Assembly: GCF_002210425.1 (NCBI RefSeq)
Contig: NZ_MWQK01000004.1
Coordinates: 372,001-436,000, forward strand
DNA: 64,000 bases
Source of the DNA: Fibrobacter sp. UWB2
GTDB taxonomy: Bacteria; Fibrobacterota; Fibrobacteria; Fibrobacterales; Fibrobacteraceae
Direction of reading: 5' to 3'
Shown: positions 27,834 to 47,736 of the stretch, piece by piece
Layout of the letters: the number at the start of each line of letters is the position of its first letter
Position numbering within the stretch: the stretch's first letter is position 1
Notes under the pieces: generated by a model
The model's input: only the letters and a program-made list of their open reading frames with translations
Told to the model about the DNA's origin: nothing
Database searches by the model: none
Program-made: the position numbers and the translations under genes

Positions 27834-28706
27834 TTACCCTCCATAGATTTCTGGCGACTGGCTGTAGAATCGACGGTGCGTGAAGCTGTACCAGAGATTC
27901 GGATTTTCGCAGATGCGCTCTTCGAGCCACTTGTTAAATTTTTCGGCGACTTTGGACTGCACGCCTCCCACCTCGACAGCGTGGAGCACGCGAACTTTTT
28001 TTGAAGACGAGTGTTCTAGAGATTCATCTTTCGGAGATGCGCCGCGTTCCTCCATCCAGCAAATAAACACAGGTGTTTGCGGACGATGCCTGAGCAAAAA
28101 GTCCGGCAGCGGATTCACATTTACGGGTTGCCCCAAGAGCGTTCCCGAAAGTGCGCTCGGAATGCGGGAATCCTGATCGGAAAGCAAGCAGAAAAGATTG
28201 CCTTCGTTCAAGATGCGTATAAAGTCGCGAGGTGTCCGGGCATCCACGGAATAACTCAGGCCATTGACCGCACGGATTTTGCGTTCAAGAATGTTATTAA
28301 GCCACTTGGGCTTCACGGGTATATAACTTGCGACAAGTGGGATTTCAAGGCGGCAAAGCCACGGCCCCATCGCTTCGTAATTGCCGTAATGCGCGGTCAA
28401 GAAGATTCCGCCGCTCCGCATTTTTTCGAGCACCGGAATAGCCGCCTCGTCAAGTGCAAAGTCCCAGCCATCCACACAGCACGGGTATGCGGTAAAATCA
28501 TGCGGCAACTTCTTGAAAGTCCCGAAACGAAACAAGAGTTCGCTCGCATGACGCGTCAAGTTAAGCAAAAGTTCATCGTAGTTGACGGGTGAAGCCACAT
28601 GCTTTGCATTAGCTAATACGGTTTTATGCTTCCAGCCCGTAAGCCGAAGCACCACGTAAGCACCGCACGCAAAAACCGCCGCCAATATTTTACCAAAGAA
28701 AATCAT
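27834..28706 (-). CDS. LpxL/HtrB-type lauroyl (lysophospholipid) acyltransferase
   Basis: A 290-residue membrane-anchored acyltransferase. An N-terminal hydrophobic helix (ILAAVFACGAYVVLRL) is followed by the catalytic H-x4-E motif in LTAHYGNYEAMGPWL (about residue 100) and FCLLSDQDSRIPSA, a typical LpxL/LpxM motif. These enzymes add secondary acyl chains to lipid A at the inner membrane, indicating a lipopolysaccharide-type outer membrane. Length matches the family (about 300). It is first of a two-gene transcript with the M50-like protein. Confidence 0.85.
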   Translation of the reverse strand: MIFFGKILAAVFACGAYVVLRLTGWKHKTVLANAKHVASPVNYDELLLNLTRHASELLFRFGTFKKLPHDFTAYPCCVDGWDFALDEAAIPVLEKMRSGGIFLTAHYGNYEAMGPWLCRLEIPLVASYIPVKPKWLNNILERKIRAVNGLSYSVDARTPRDFIRILNEGNLFCLLSDQDSRIPSALSGTLLGQPVNVNPLPDFLLRHRPQTPVFICWMEERGASPKDESLEHSSSKKVRVLHAVEVGGVQSKVAEKFNKWLEERICENPNLWYSFTHRRFYSQSPEIYGG

Positions 28707-28827
28707 TACGGATTAAAGATACGAAAAATATTTTTGTTTCGGCGATAGAACGGGATACGGAATCGTTCACATCAAGCGAGGAAAAGCGTCCGCCATAGCT
28801 ACGGACATTCAAATTTCAGCCGAACCA

Positions 28828-28987
28828 TTACGAAATCTCACTTTTTTAAACACATTTCGTAGCACTTCAAAATCTGAACCTTTACGAAATCTCATATTTT
28901 TTATCACTTTTCGTAATATTTCAGAAAACGAACTATTGCGAAATCTCTATTTTTTTAGTAGATTTCGTAATACTACTAGAGGTTCTT
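28828..28987. repeat. Three tandem 54-bp repeats, each with an internal TTACGAAA/TTTCGTAA inverted pair
   Basis: Units begin at 28828, 28882 and 28936, exactly 54 bases apart. Each starts TTACGAAATCTC (TTGCGAAATCTC in the third), continues into a T-run, and carries TTTCGTA about 27 bases after its start, forming an inverted pair with the opening. The last unit runs up to the start codon of the ATPase gene at 28988. The tail of each unit is more variable; the bases just before 28828 resemble the end of a unit. The likely role is an operator or binding array for the downstream gene. Confidence 0.8.
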
Positions 28988-30409
28988 ATGGAAAAGCTCA
29001 TTGTCGGAAGGTTAAAGGAAAAGGCTCTTTTTGAAGAATGCGCGCAATCAGGAAAGCCCGAATTCATTACAGTCTATGGCCGACGTCGCATCGGAAAAAC
29101 ATTCTTGATTCGCGAATACTTCAACGACAAGTTCGACTTTTATTGCACCGGGTCGTATGGAGCAAGCAAAGAAGAACAGCTGAGCCGATTCTGCCAAAAG
29201 ATTGCGGAATATTCCAAGAGTTTCGTTCCGGCCGTAAGTTCTTGGGACGAGGCATTCACCTTACTACAAAACTATTTAGGAAGCATCAAAGGGCGCCCCA
29301 TAACAGTCTTTATAGACGAACTCCCTTGGCTGGACACCCCTCGTTCAAAATTCTTGAACGCATTCGAATATTTCTGGAACAGCTGGGGTTCCCGACAAGA
29401 CAATCTCAAACTAATCGTATGTGGATCCGCAACTTCGTGGATGACAAACAAACTCCTCGGCAACAAGGGAGGTCTCCACAACCGCGTTACAAGGAGAATC
29501 CACCTCTCAGCATTTACTCTTAAAGAAACCGAAGACTTTATAAAGTCCAGAGGAATGCCTTATTCAAGGCAACAAGTTTTTGAGACATACATGTGCCTTG
29601 GCGGCACGCCGTTCTACTTGGATATGCTGAAAAAAGGTCTCAGTACAACGCAAAATATAGACGAACTATTTTTCGCACCCAACGCTCCCCTTGCCGAAGA
29701 ATACGGATTCCTATTCAAGTCCTTGTTTAACGATTCAACGATGTATAAGCGAATCGTTGAATTGCTCGCAAAAAAGACTATTGGGATGACTCGTTCTGAA
29801 ATTGTAGCCGCACTAAAAATTTCTGATAGCGGTGTGCTAACGGAAGTTTTAGAAAACCTTGAAAATTGCGACTTTATCCGTAGCTATGCAGCCTTCGGAA
29901 AAAAAGCAAAAGACATCATGTACCAACTCGTAGATCTCTATTCACTATTTTATCTACGCTATGCCAAAAATTACCGTGGTGGAGACAAAAACAGATGGAG
30001 CAACATGATTGATTCACCAAGTCGCAGAGCATGGAGCGGCTACGCCTTTGAGCAAGTCTGTTTAAATCACATCGACCAAATCAAGCAAAAACTTGGCATT
30101 TCAGGAATCCAAAGCGATGTATGTTCTTGGCGTTACAAAGGCGACAAAGATTCGCAAGGAGCACAAATCGACCTGCTAATCGACCGTCGCGACCAAGTCA
30201 TCAATCTCTGCGAAATGAAATATTCTAGCAAGCCTTACGAAATCACCTCTACGTATATGGAATATTTAAAACAACGCCGCGAGACATTCCGCGAAGTCAC
30301 AAAGACCCGCAAGTCGCTTTACTTGACACTTGTAACGCCATGCGGCCTCGCGAAGAACGCTGCATGGAACGAAATTCAAAACGAGTTGACGTTAGACGAT
30401 TTATTCTAG
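28988..30409 (+). CDS. Archaeal-type AAA ATPase with C-terminal PD-(D/E)XK-like domain
   Basis: A 473-residue protein. The ATPase domain has Walker A YGRRRIGKTFL (about residues 30-40) and Walker B TVFIDELPWLD, typical of the ATPase_2 (archaeal ATPase) family. A winged-helix-like region follows near residues 250-300 (MTRSEIVAALKISDSGVLTEVLENLE). The C-terminal DUF234-like region ends in AQIDLLIDRRDQVINLCEMKY, an Asp-x(n)-Glu-x-Lys arrangement as in PD-(D/E)XK nucleases. The family is common and often multi-copy in anaerobes; its biological role is not established. AGAGG lies eight bases before the ATG, within the third 54-bp repeat unit. Confidence 0.85.
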   Translation: MEKLIVGRLKEKALFEECAQSGKPEFITVYGRRRIGKTFLIREYFNDKFDFYCTGSYGASKEEQLSRFCQKIAEYSKSFVPAVSSWDEAFTLLQNYLGSIKGRPITVFIDELPWLDTPRSKFLNAFEYFWNSWGSRQDNLKLIVCGSATSWMTNKLLGNKGGLHNRVTRRIHLSAFTLKETEDFIKSRGMPYSRQQVFETYMCLGGTPFYLDMLKKGLSTTQNIDELFFAPNAPLAEEYGFLFKSLFNDSTMYKRIVELLAKKTIGMTRSEIVAALKISDSGVLTEVLENLENCDFIRSYAAFGKKAKDIMYQLVDLYSLFYLRYAKNYRGGDKNRWSNMIDSPSRRAWSGYAFEQVCLNHIDQIKQKLGISGIQSDVCSWRYKGDKDSQGAQIDLLIDRRDQVINLCEMKYSSKPYEITSTYMEYLKQRRETFREVTKTRKSLYLTLVTPCGLAKNAAWNEIQNELTLDDLF

Positions 30410-30427: not shown

Positions 30428-31159
30428 ATGATTTACAAAGAAACCAAATCAGTCAACGACAAACCGCAAGAAGTTCCTGACGATAAAATTCAGGAGAACG
30501 TCCTGCGTGGCGAGAAACTGATTGCCAGGTCAAAGAAATCGATTCAAACAATTATCTTGGCAGATTTGTTCATTTTCGTGATTGGGATAGCAACACTCAG
30601 CTTAGGTTCCAATTTTTTTGACAATCTATTTCTTATTATATATCCAATCCTATCCCTATTCATATTCTTCATGTTGTTTTCAACAGCCTCAATTTATTGC
30701 AAATGGCTTTACCATATTTTAAGAAACCTTCGCAAATGGACAGAAACACGATTTTTTCCAAAGGATGCCGCTATCGGATCGCTATTTCCCTGCATCGGCC
30801 AGTTCATGACGTTTTTCATTTTCAAGGACATCCTCACACAACAAAAAAAGATTCTTGAGGAACATGGTATCTATTCCGCACCCATACCAACGTTCCTTCT
30901 TTTGACCCCGCTCATACCTGCCACCTTTCTTTTCCTGTTCTTTTTACTAACACTCGGGATGATAAAGAGTATCCAATTTTGGACTTTTTTAGTCTTCACC
31001 AGTTTTTTCTTCCCTATTATAAGGTACGTCTTTATCTTCAAAGTACTCTTCGACATATTCGCAATCATCACCCTGCTCATCTACATGAAGTTGGTTCAAC
31101 AGCCCATATCAAATGAAAAGGCGATTGCCCAATTGAACATCGACAACACAAACCCCTAA
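30428..31159 (+). CDS. DUF4328-like membrane protein
   Basis: A 243-residue membrane protein with about five hydrophobic helices (IILADLFIFVIGIATLSL, LFLIIYPILSLFIFFML, TFLLLTPLIPATFLFLFF and two near the C-terminus). The central part YCKWLYHILRNLRKW..FFPKDAAIGSLFPCIGQF resembles DUF4328, a domain with WxYRAxxNL- and WxxxxFxPFxNL-type motifs. Function unknown. It begins 18 bases after the ATPase gene. Confidence 0.6.
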   Translation: MIYKETKSVNDKPQEVPDDKIQENVLRGEKLIARSKKSIQTIILADLFIFVIGIATLSLGSNFFDNLFLIIYPILSLFIFFMLFSTASIYCKWLYHILRNLRKWTETRFFPKDAAIGSLFPCIGQFMTFFIFKDILTQQKKILEEHGIYSAPIPTFLLLTPLIPATFLFLFFLLTLGMIKSIQFWTFLVFTSFFFPIIRYVFIFKVLFDIFAIITLLIYMKLVQQPISNEKAIAQLNIDNTNP

Positions 31160-33314: not shown

Positions 33315-33343
33315 TTGATTATTTGTGAAAAAGAAGTTATTTT
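33315..33343 (+). promoter_or_regulatory. Candidate sigma-70-type promoter of the histone-like gene
   Basis: TTGATT (33315-33320), a 17-base spacer and TATTTT (33338-33343), about 40 bases before the ATG at 33385. Each element is one or two bases off consensus, in a very AT-rich stretch, so the assignment is tentative. Confidence 0.45.
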
Positions 33344-33384
33344 TCAGGTATCAACAAATAAATAACAAAAAAGGAAGAAAAAAA

Positions 33385-33573
33385 ATGGCTACAAAAACTG
33401 TTGCAAAGAAACCCGCCGCTGCTAAGAAGCCCGCTGCTGCTAAGAAGCCGGCCGCTGCCAAGAAGCCTGCTGCCGCTAAGAAGCCGGCCGCTGCTAAGAA
33501 GCCCGCTGCCGCTAAGAAGCCGGCCGCTGCCAAGAAGCCGACTGCTGCTAAGAAGCCGGCCGCCAAGAAGTAA
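33385..33573 (+). CDS. Histone H1-like Lys/Ala/Pro repeat protein
   Basis: A 62-residue, highly basic protein. After MATKTVAKKP it is almost entirely tandem copies of the hexapeptide AAAKKP (eight or nine copies, one with Thr), ending AAKK. The start at 33385 follows AAGGAAG. Such repeats are found in bacterial histone H1-like and AlgP-type proteins, which bind DNA through lysines without a fixed fold. At DNA level the units are 18 bases long, so the copy number should vary easily between strains. It has its own promoter candidate and a strong terminator, so it is a single-gene transcript, probably abundant. Confidence 0.8.
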   Translation: MATKTVAKKPAAAKKPAAAKKPAAAKKPAAAKKPAAAKKPAAAKKPAAAKKPTAAKKPAAKK

Positions 33574-46291: not shown

Positions 46292-46334
46292 CCTTAACAA
46301 TTAACCCCTATTCCGATCAAATTTCGTATTTCTA

Positions 46335-46446
46335 CAAAATCAGACCGAATAAAAATCCAAAATCATACCGATTAAAAACATTAAATCGAACCGAATGAAA
46401 ATAGCAAATTACACCGAATATATTGACAAAATCATACCGATTATAT
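46335..46446. repeat. Five 23-bp iterons upstream of the DUF4143 ATPase gene
   Basis: The core ACCGAAT/ACCGATT starts at 46344, 46367, 46390, 46413 and 46436, exactly 23 bases apart, embedded in A-rich spacers such as AAAATCATACCGATTAAAAA. The last copy ends about 17 bases before the start codon at 46459. Equal phasing at about two helical turns puts every core on nearly the same DNA face. A cooperative protein-binding array or operator is likely. Confidence 0.85.
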
Positions 46447-46458
46447 ATTTTAAGGGGT

Positions 46459-47736
46459 ATGAAATCGTCAAATTACAAGCCAAGAATCGTCGATAACCAA
46501 ATAGAAAACGCCCTTTCAACCTTCGGAGCCGTATGCATCGAAGGTCCCAAATGGTGCGGCAAAACCTGGACTTCCGATTATCACGCCAACAGCAAAATCG
46601 AACTAGGCGACCCAAGTGGCAATTTCCAGAACCGACAACTTGCGGAGCTCGACCCAAAACTGATTTTAAGCGGAGATACACCTCGACTCATCGATGAATG
46701 GCAGGAAGTTCCGTCAGTATGGGACGCCGTTCGTTACGAAGTTGATCATCGTGCGCTCAAGGGTCAATTTATCCTGACAGGTTCATCTACACCGTCGCGT
46801 AAAGGAGTTCTGCACAGCGGAGCCGGACGAATCGCCAAAATTCGCATGCGGCCAATGTCGCTATACGAATCAGGAGCCTCTAGCGGAAAGGTTTCGTTAC
46901 TGGACATTTGCAACGGCAAAATCGAACCAGTCATGACGGGAGACGTCCAATTAAACGACTTGATAGAACTCGTGGTTCGCGGTGGATGGCCAGGCAATCT
47001 TGGACTTTCTACGGAACAATCCATGGCCATTCCTAAAGCCTATCTTGAAGCCATTATCGACGACGATATGGATCGTCTTGACGGAATCAAACGAAACAAA
47101 AGCAAGATGACGTTGTTACTCAGATCTCTTGCCAGAAACGAATCAACCACAGCAACAAACAAAATATTGAAGAACGACATCAAAGAAATCGATGATGACG
47201 ACATCGACTCGGATACAATAGCAAGCTACCTTGATGTTTTAAAAAGACTCTTTCTTGTCGAGAACCAGCCTCCATTCTGCACAAAAATACGCTCCAAGCT
47301 TAGAGTCAAGCAAGCCGAAAAACGACACCTCGCCGACCCTTCACTTGCAGTAGCACTATTGGGAGCGACACCTAGCAAACTTTTAAATGATCTGAACACT
47401 CTAGGCTTTCTTTTCGAATCACTTTGCGAACGCGACTTGGATATCTACGCAAAATCCTTCGGAGGAAAACTATACCATTACCAAGACTACGCAAACAAGG
47501 AAATAGACTCCGTTATTGAGATGCCCGATGGTAGCTGGAACGCTTTTGAAATAAAGCTCGGAGCAAATCAGATTGATGAAGCAGCACGCAACTTATTAGA
47601 TATACAGAACGATATTTCCAATGATCCAGCAGGAATTCCCCCATCCAATCTCTGCGTCATTTGCGGAATGAGCAACGCCGCCTACAAGCGTCCTGACGGA
47701 GTATTCGTAGTGCCGATTACAGCGTTGAAGAATTAA
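46459..47736 (+). CDS. AAA_14/DUF4143 ATPase
   Basis: A 425-residue protein; start at 46459 after AAGGGG. The ATPase domain has an altered Walker A EGPKWCGKTWT (about residues 30-40) and Walker B RLIDEWQEVP, typical of AAA_14 proteins (Lys-Thr present; Asp-Glu present). A DUF4143-type C-terminal region (EKRHLADPSLAVALLG, then GFLFESLCERDL, then YHYQDYANKEIDSVIE with EIKLG) ends in a PD-(D/E)XK-like Asp/Glu-x-Lys. The family is multi-copy in many anaerobes and its role is unknown. It sits behind a five-copy iteron array. Confidence 0.88.
   Translation: MKSSNYKPRIVDNQIENALSTFGAVCIEGPKWCGKTWTSDYHANSKIELGDPSGNFQNRQLAELDPKLILSGDTPRLIDEWQEVPSVWDAVRYEVDHRALKGQFILTGSSTPSRKGVLHSGAGRIAKIRMRPMSLYESGASSGKVSLLDICNGKIEPVMTGDVQLNDLIELVVRGGWPGNLGLSTEQSMAIPKAYLEAIIDDDMDRLDGIKRNKSKMTLLLRSLARNESTTATNKILKNDIKEIDDDDIDSDTIASYLDVLKRLFLVENQPPFCTKIRSKLRVKQAEKRHLADPSLAVALLGATPSKLLNDLNTLGFLFESLCERDLDIYAKSFGGKLYHYQDYANKEIDSVIEMPDGSWNAFEIKLGANQIDEAARNLLDIQNDISNDPAGIPPSNLCVICGMSNAAYKRPDGVFVVPITALKN

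Follow-up and report, generated by a model that had tools for sequence, protein, structure and literature searches.

A three-unit 54-bp dyad array upstream of a Fibrobacter PDC-S27 ATPase gene is probably the operator of the ATPase itself

The window analyzed is a stretch of 64,000 nucleotides from Fibrobacter sp. UWB2. Its forward strand carries, at 28988–30409, a gene coding for a STAND-type ATPase of 473 amino acids plus stop, which was recognized by its open reading frame, Pfam domain PF01637 (ATPase_2), PADLOC profile PDLC04984 and structure prediction. The PADLOC match is full-length (E 1.9e-200; residues 4–473 against positions 3–473 of a 474-position profile) and assigns the protein to PDC-S27, a class combining ATPase_2 with PD-(D/E)XK. 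This label denotes a phage-defence candidate only, and an anti-phage function is inferred. No match was obtained in a PDB sequence search and no family in an NCBIfam search. The NTPase core comprises residues 1–246 (28988–29725, forward strand) and includes Walker A GRRRIGKT and Walker B FIDE. An AlphaFold2 model (pLDDT 93, pTM 0.91) predicts a winged helix at residues 250–314 (29735–29929, forward strand), built of helices 250–260, 269–276 and 282–293, the latter being the recognition helix, and of strands 297–301 and 310–314. A PD-(D/E)XK-like region follows at residues 376–449 (30113–30334, forward strand), with D395, E409 and K411. The 65 members that were aligned all match PF01637 and share invariant GRRR.GK and DE motifs; E409 is invariant as well, and D395 and K411 are kept in at least 90% of them. 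HTH profiles of the MarR/IclR type match some members (MarR_2 eight, HTH_IclR six), and the DUF234 profile matches 29, the window protein not being among them. The structural neighbors found by fold search are SSO1545, PABY2304, NLR resistosomes, CED-4, Orc1/Cdc6 and MalT. The archaeal ATPases PABY2304 and SSO1545 (2qen and 2fna, Z 20.7 and 20.2) are the best matches to residues 1–327, CED-4 scoring 16.2 and MalT (8bob) 13.5; the PD-(D/E)XK part was barely covered by these searches. With a Walker A and B core followed by a winged helix in an SSO1545/NLR/Orc-type fold, the window protein meets the criteria for a STAND/ATPase_2 protein. Elsewhere in the window, a short open reading frame (33325–33573) encodes repeated AAAKKP units, a lysine/alanine-rich tail like that of histone H1.

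Upstream of the ATPase gene lie three tandem 54-nt copies of a single repeat family (28822–28875, 28876–28929 and 28930–28983), spaced by exactly 54 and 54 nt; the second and third copies are 76 and 72% identical to the first. An earlier note on this DNA had proposed three units of exact 54-bp period in front of the gene, which these copies bear out. Each unit consists of the half-site TTACGAAATCT, an A/T-rich spacer and the reverse complement of the first arm, with single-base departures in the right arm of unit 1 and in the left arm of unit 3. On the forward strand, the distal dyad occupies 28828–28861 (half-site TTACGAAATCT, A/T spacer, TTTCGTA), the second 28882–28916 and the proximal one 28936–28970. 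The inverted pair that had been described for every unit holds as a dyad in all three, but its exact form, TTACGAAA...TTTCGTAA, occurs only in unit 2, as unit 1 ends with TTTCGTAG and unit 3 begins with TTGCGAAA. The last unit was also described as overlapping the translation start region. Its dyad stops short of the start codon, however: some 16 nt separate the right arm of dyad 3 from the ATG (28988), the likely ribosome-binding site being downstream of this arm, and the center of this dyad is 35 bp before the ATG, where the core promoter is expected (an inferred position). Within the window, TTACGAAATCT with at most one mismatch is found seven times, against 1.84 expected, and four of the seven lie inside the array. 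That period and motif are stricter than chance is correct, although genome-scale controls were needed to establish it: the dyad pattern has three matches in the 3,528,394-bp genome, all of them in the array, and the reversed control pattern has none.

Homologues were collected from 53 loci on public genome contigs, from matches in 55 of 111 genomes of the family and from 60 further stretches. They occur in Fibrobacter, Bacteroidota, some Firmicutes and viral contigs, the closest relatives of the window gene being those of rumen Fibrobacter MAGs. As several of the resulting 140 loci are the same gene fetched twice (e.g., L058–L060 and L005–L007), counts are based on 70 representatives at 90% identity, 69 of them testable. 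The best upstream dyad scored at least 9 in 62 of these 69, versus 7 of 47 other window genes, and an upstream repeat with a lag of 48–58 bp and a score of at least 13 was present in 44, versus one of the 47. Held-out homologues gave 90/98 and 60/98, respectively. The layout can be read directly from these upstream regions, and it persists while the letters change: the dyads often repeat at a lag of 51–55 bp with other half-sites, such as GTCGGTAACT, ATCCCTAAGT, GGCCATAACT, GTCTAAATCT, TCGCCAAAACT and TGCTGAAAT. Half-sites were assigned at 148 loci; those on the same strand lie 50–56 bp apart in 223 of 289 cases, and the starts of opposed half-sites are separated by 25 bp (139 times) or 26 bp (69 times), the next most frequent distance being 27 bp (nine times). 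Half-sites thus alternate about every 2.5 helical turns and repeat every five. The earlier note had suggested looking for homologues with other motifs in the same layout, and these were found, with half-sites about 26 bp apart and a period of 51–55 bp. Absence of the repeats from close relatives, which would have refuted its proposal, is not observed, since the three nearest ones, L005–L007 (94–99% protein identity), all carry the array. The number of units does vary among close relatives: L005 has two, and L001, L006 and L007 have three, the gene being nearly the same.

There are exceptions. Four near-identical Fibrobacter loci (L067–L070), whose products are 54–55% identical to the window protein, have the gene without any recognizable dyad; these proteins may start with an extended N-terminus. 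Upstream dyads are present in a distant group of roughly 25–30% identity (L002, L003, L093, L105 and L146), which was excluded from the covariation analysis. Viral contigs contributed ten homologue loci, eight of them near full length, and most of the eight upstream regions inspected show a similar dyad by eye (unscored). On a single 85.7-kb contig of a viral collection, two PDC-S27 genes (L340 and L346) have different upstream dyads.

For comparison, 30 PDC-S01 loci from the same genomes (28 testable) were analyzed in the same way. A palindrome score of at least 9 was reached upstream of 20/28, whereas a 48–58 bp lag was found in only 2/28. Dyads close to the promoter are thus not peculiar to PDC-S27, but the 54-bp array is. 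Many of these loci (L310–L339) have strong promoter palindromes without the 54-bp period, hinting that private operators are common to this wider class. The window itself includes a PDC-S01 candidate (E 1.4e-60), encoded by a second ATPase gene at 46423–47736 (TTG start; likely ATG at 46459). This second defence-candidate gene is preceded by an array of its own, unlike that of PDC-S27, consisting of five direct repeats of a AAATCATACCGATT-like sequence with a period of exactly 23 bp (46314–46453).

Genomes with many PDC-S27 genes allow us to separate the contribution of the protein from that of the host. The Bacteroidia genome G115 has 25 PDC-S27 matches, fragments among them; its 17 homologues with a readable half-site have 17 distinct 8-mers, 14 of which are distinct in the first five bases. 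Distinct half-sites number 13/13 in G121, 12/13 in G118, 12/12 in G117 and 12/12 in G129 (letters differing between arms were set to N in all five tallies, and counted as written). At a protein identity of 0.40–0.45, half-sites agree in 2.32 of five bases for pairs from the same genome (278 pairs) and in 2.35 for pairs from different genomes (5818 pairs). Across most of the range of protein identity, sharing a genome adds no similarity between half-sites, which climbs with protein identity to 4.55 of five bases above 70%. Judged from these sequence comparisons, the half-site follows the protein and not the host. As each of these genomes holds many private half-sites whose similarity tracks the protein, the reader must travel with the gene, and a host factor could not produce such a pattern.

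A relative provides the corresponding empty site. Genome G088 (L152), which is 97.5% identical downstream, lacks the segment 28729–30410 (forward strand) and has 43 other bases in its place. The missing segment comprises the array and the gene and nothing else, so both move together. The downstream gene (30428–31159), considered as a partner, was dropped because it is kept at the G088 empty site; it has no Pfam, PADLOC or NCBIfam match. At another locus (L104, contig 26 of G034), a second array lies upstream of the locus' own dyads. Its half-site, CTCTAAAT, is that of the L114/L120 group, and no gene of that group was found beside it in the 597 bp examined. This orphan array is perhaps the scar of a lost cassette.

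We then compared half-sites with protein residues. For the discovery set, half-sites of 64 of the 65 aligned proteins (L067 has none) were assigned by eye, before any residue comparison, in an eight-base register reading N, N, C, C/T/G, N, A/T, A, A/T and continuing with C/G and T. The C at position 3 in 64/64 is partly a matter of construction, as the register was chosen in part to keep it. With protein distance regressed out, and the winged helix excluded from that distance, the strongest of the 428 columns for base 4 is residue 281, followed by residue 280. A tree that likewise leaves out the winged helix has 11 branches with a change in base 4, and residue 280 changes on 8 of them (rank 1; p 3e-5 before column correction). 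Other bases were less clear: the top columns for bases 2 and 5 (145 and 150) lie in the NTPase domain, the top column for base 1 in the discovery set is also outside the winged helix, and top columns, when simply pooled, are only weakly enriched there (6/20, p 0.021; 5/20, p 0.072; 3/20, p 0.43). A scan of 401 columns in 84 held-out sequences with well-scored sites returned residue 281 as the top column for base 4 (z 7.6), residue 283 for base 1 (z 4.2) and residue 308 for base 8 (z 10.0); residue 280 was outside the first six for base 4 and second for base 5. When both sets are combined, base 6 is A in 58/62 cases with lysine 308 and T in 33/49 with arginine 308. In the window gene, the residues covarying with bases 4 and 1 are encoded at 29825–29836 (residues 280–283, start of the recognition helix) and the wing residues 307–308 at 29906–29911, both on the forward strand; it is residue 308 that covaries with bases 6 and 8. 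That these columns are helix and wing positions of the predicted DNA-binding domain is, in our view and in the absence of binding data, strong evidence for an ATPase that reads its own array.

A rule for base 4 was fixed before more sequences were fetched: aspartate at 280 predicts G; otherwise, asparagine or aspartate at 281 predicts T; otherwise, glycine, serine or threonine at 281 predicts C. The held-out set came from 26 genomes (94 stretches plus further loci) and provided 124 usable homologues, 99 of them less than 90% identical to the first set. Four of the 99 were not scored, L222 and L224 because alanine 281 gives no prediction, and L241 and L296 for lack of a readable dyad. Sites were called automatically and blind to the protein by a program that demands C at position 3 and an identical base 4 in both arms. 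It agrees with the reading by eye in 59/64 cases, versus 56/64 for an earlier version without these demands; the revision drew on the discovery set alone and preceded all scoring of held-out predictions. The rule was correct for 64 of 95 homologues, compared with 44 when the base was taken from the nearest relative and 47 when C was always predicted; shuffling its predictions 20,000 times gave a mean of 34.2 and a maximum of 53. Rule and nearest relative disagree in 49 cases, the rule being right in 29 and the relative in nine. By class, 41/49 C, 8/14 T and 15/32 G predictions were right, so that most of the 31 misses concern aspartate at 280. The ten A calls, which the rule cannot predict, were retained as misses.

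The position of the dyads relative to the promoter was analyzed mainly in Bacteroidota, whose promoters have a –7 box, TAnnTTTG. In a set of 125 loci, which includes a few Firmicutes or other MAGs, this box was found within 150 bp upstream of the gene in 110, compared with 30 and 31 of 125 for two controls; its median position is 31 bp before the ATG. Distances from the box to the nearest readable dyad center cluster at 0, 8–10, 30, 40–42, 50–54 and 60–64 bp. They are phased at 10.5 bp, the best period scanned, with a Rayleigh length of 0.77 (n = 88), the maximum of 5000 re-pairings being 0.34. For loci below 60% identity the value is 0.74 (n = 54; maximum of 5000 re-pairings 0.42), and below 50% it is 0.61 (n = 17) versus a re-pairing maximum of 0.64; among the ten loci below 45% identity, phasing could not be distinguished from re-pairings. 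The distance from dyad to ATG has no phase (R 0.09). At the window locus, a sigma-70 scan of 28740–29020 on both strands found no promoter, and the promoter of the window gene is for this reason inferred from position. An ad hoc sigma-70 scan of Fibrobacter loci returned scattered positions and was not used.

Upstream dyads, covarying recognition residues and promoter phasing meet the cognate-site criterion for autoregulatory winged-helix regulators. Although binding and expression data are lacking, we consider it very likely that the three 54-bp units are the operators of the ATPase encoded next to them, that they control its own promoter, with repression the likeliest effect at the window gene, and that they are mobile with the gene as a cassette. 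The earlier note had inferred control of this gene by a protein array, possibly of the ATPase itself; that inference is supported by homologues that keep the layout with different motifs and by winged-helix covariation in both discovery and held-out sets. In the model that we propose, each dyad would be held by two winged-helix domains of the ATPase, one at each half-site flanking the A/T-rich spacer, dimerization being inferred as much as binding. Neighboring dyads are five helical turns apart, and several dimers could be aligned along the same side of the double helix. Variable bases 1 and 4 would be read by the recognition helix (residues 280–283), and the A/T bases 6 and 8 by wing residue 308. 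Occupancy of the array would then control the promoter of the ATPase, and repression at the window gene would keep a candidate immune nuclease scarce until needed. Array and gene move as one cassette, and each lineage may have drifted to its own half-site, allowing many paralogues to share a cell without cross-control.

The sign of this predicted autoregulation could also be the reverse. Working from the array in the way that MalT works from its boxes, an ATP-bound ATPase might activate its promoter and so form a positive-feedback switch for a defence gene; we regard this as possible, though rather unlikely. In most Bacteroidota the nearest readable dyad is 40–64 bp upstream of the –7 box, a position as typical of activators as of repressors, and in 47/88 cases it lies four or five turns (40–54 bp) upstream, usually without any half-site nearer to the promoter. 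Helical phasing would suit contact with RNA polymerase, and MalT is among the structural neighbors. Against activation, the proximal dyad center of the window and of several Fibrobacter relatives is 33–46 bp from the ATG, over the promoter region, and the –7 box is 0–10 bp from a dyad center in 12/88 Bacteroidota cases. Dyad positions are compatible with either sign. As the last dyad overlaps the promoter region, repression is the likeliest outcome at the window gene and is placed ahead of activation there, but not firmly, the sign being inferred.

The remaining explanations fare worse. Leader RNA hairpins, acting as an attenuator or an RNA-binding site, come to mind since each dyad could pair in a transcript and the array is near the gene. 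However, the –7 box is 18–70 bp downstream of the last dyad center in 74 of 99 Bacteroidota loci (in 16 it is within 17 bp, in eight more than 70 bp downstream and in one upstream), so most dyads are not transcribed; a phasing of 10.5 bp is a property of the double helix, which points to duplex DNA carrying a protein on a fixed side as the decisive feature; and an Rfam search of 28600–29100 found no match. We give hairpins almost no credence. Hardly more can be said for a host regulator or nucleoid protein occupying the array. A/T-spacer arrays do suit many DNA-binding proteins, but 17 homologues with 17 half-sites in one genome, half-sites that track the protein, a cassette without a second gene and a covariation that maps inside the ATPase all speak against it. 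The array might also be an assembly platform, an origin-like site or a cutting site for the ATPase-nuclease, comparable to the ORB of Orc1/Cdc6, with promoter control being secondary. The fold is near that of Orc1/Cdc6, the spacer is A/T-rich and, according to the available part of the source, haloarchaeal orc/cdc6 genes adjoin their own diverse recognition boxes (PMC3528665). Promoter phasing and a chromosomal single-gene cassette lacking replication genes make this quite improbable.

Autoregulation by the ATPase, the reading that we favor, has partial precedents, here taken from sources available only in part. MalT of E. coli and mycobacterial IniR are likewise STAND-type ATPases that act on promoters; IniR can bind the iniBAC promoter and induce it, and its ATPase domain has been likened to SSO1545 (PMC5760070). 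IniR differs in having a separate C-terminal DNA-binding domain and another operon as its target (PMC5760070), whereas the window protein seems to read DNA through the winged helix beside the ATPase core (no binding data are available), would target its own gene and continues into a nuclease-like domain. Archaeal Orc1/Cdc6 resembles it as an AAA+ protein with a winged helix (fold matches 2qby and 2v1u) whose gene adjoins recognition boxes, and these boxes vary within one genome (PMC3528665); ORB boxes are replication origins, however, while the PDC-S27 boxes are promoter-phased and belong to a mobile cassette of a single gene that includes a nuclease-like domain. In the defence system AbiE, the DNA-binding protein AbiEi uses inverted repeats to repress its own operon (PMC7319586). 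It is a separate antitoxin, whereas regulator and putative effector are one protein in PDC-S27. As far as the literature covered goes, none of these systems has a private operator array together with a single protein that is both regulator and nuclease-like effector. The accessible portions of PMC12988326 and PMC13356809 do not mention an operator, repeat or regulation for PDC-S27, and a literature search, which was not exhaustive and left subscription journals mostly outside, turned up no description of operators for PDC-S27 or for ATPases related to it.

A more speculative reading, which we think improbable, takes the array as the parking place of an NLR-like bacterial immune sensor. In plant and animal STAND sensors (the NLR immune sensors) the winged helix acts as a lock. 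Here, it would clamp the protein to its own promoter at rest; an attack that strips or remodels DNA, or hijacks transcription, would free it and turn the gene on, and the ATPase-nuclease would assemble. As each paralogue has its own half-site, at least a dozen such sensors could work independently in one cell, and the protein-to-DNA code of each would be partly readable (residues 280, 281, 283 and 308). Independently of this, our results suggest that the winged helix of a STAND ATPase, known as the lock of NLR immune sensors, can read DNA. PDC-S27 is among the commoner predicted defence genes: one survey, whose available part is silent on the regulation of PDC-S27, counted 4562 bacterial and 3503 archaeal cases (PMC12988326). 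For each PDC-S27 gene, the arrays yield a predicted binding site and a residue code that can be tested directly, and the 17 different sites of a single genome (G115) may represent a natural set of mutually orthogonal regulators.
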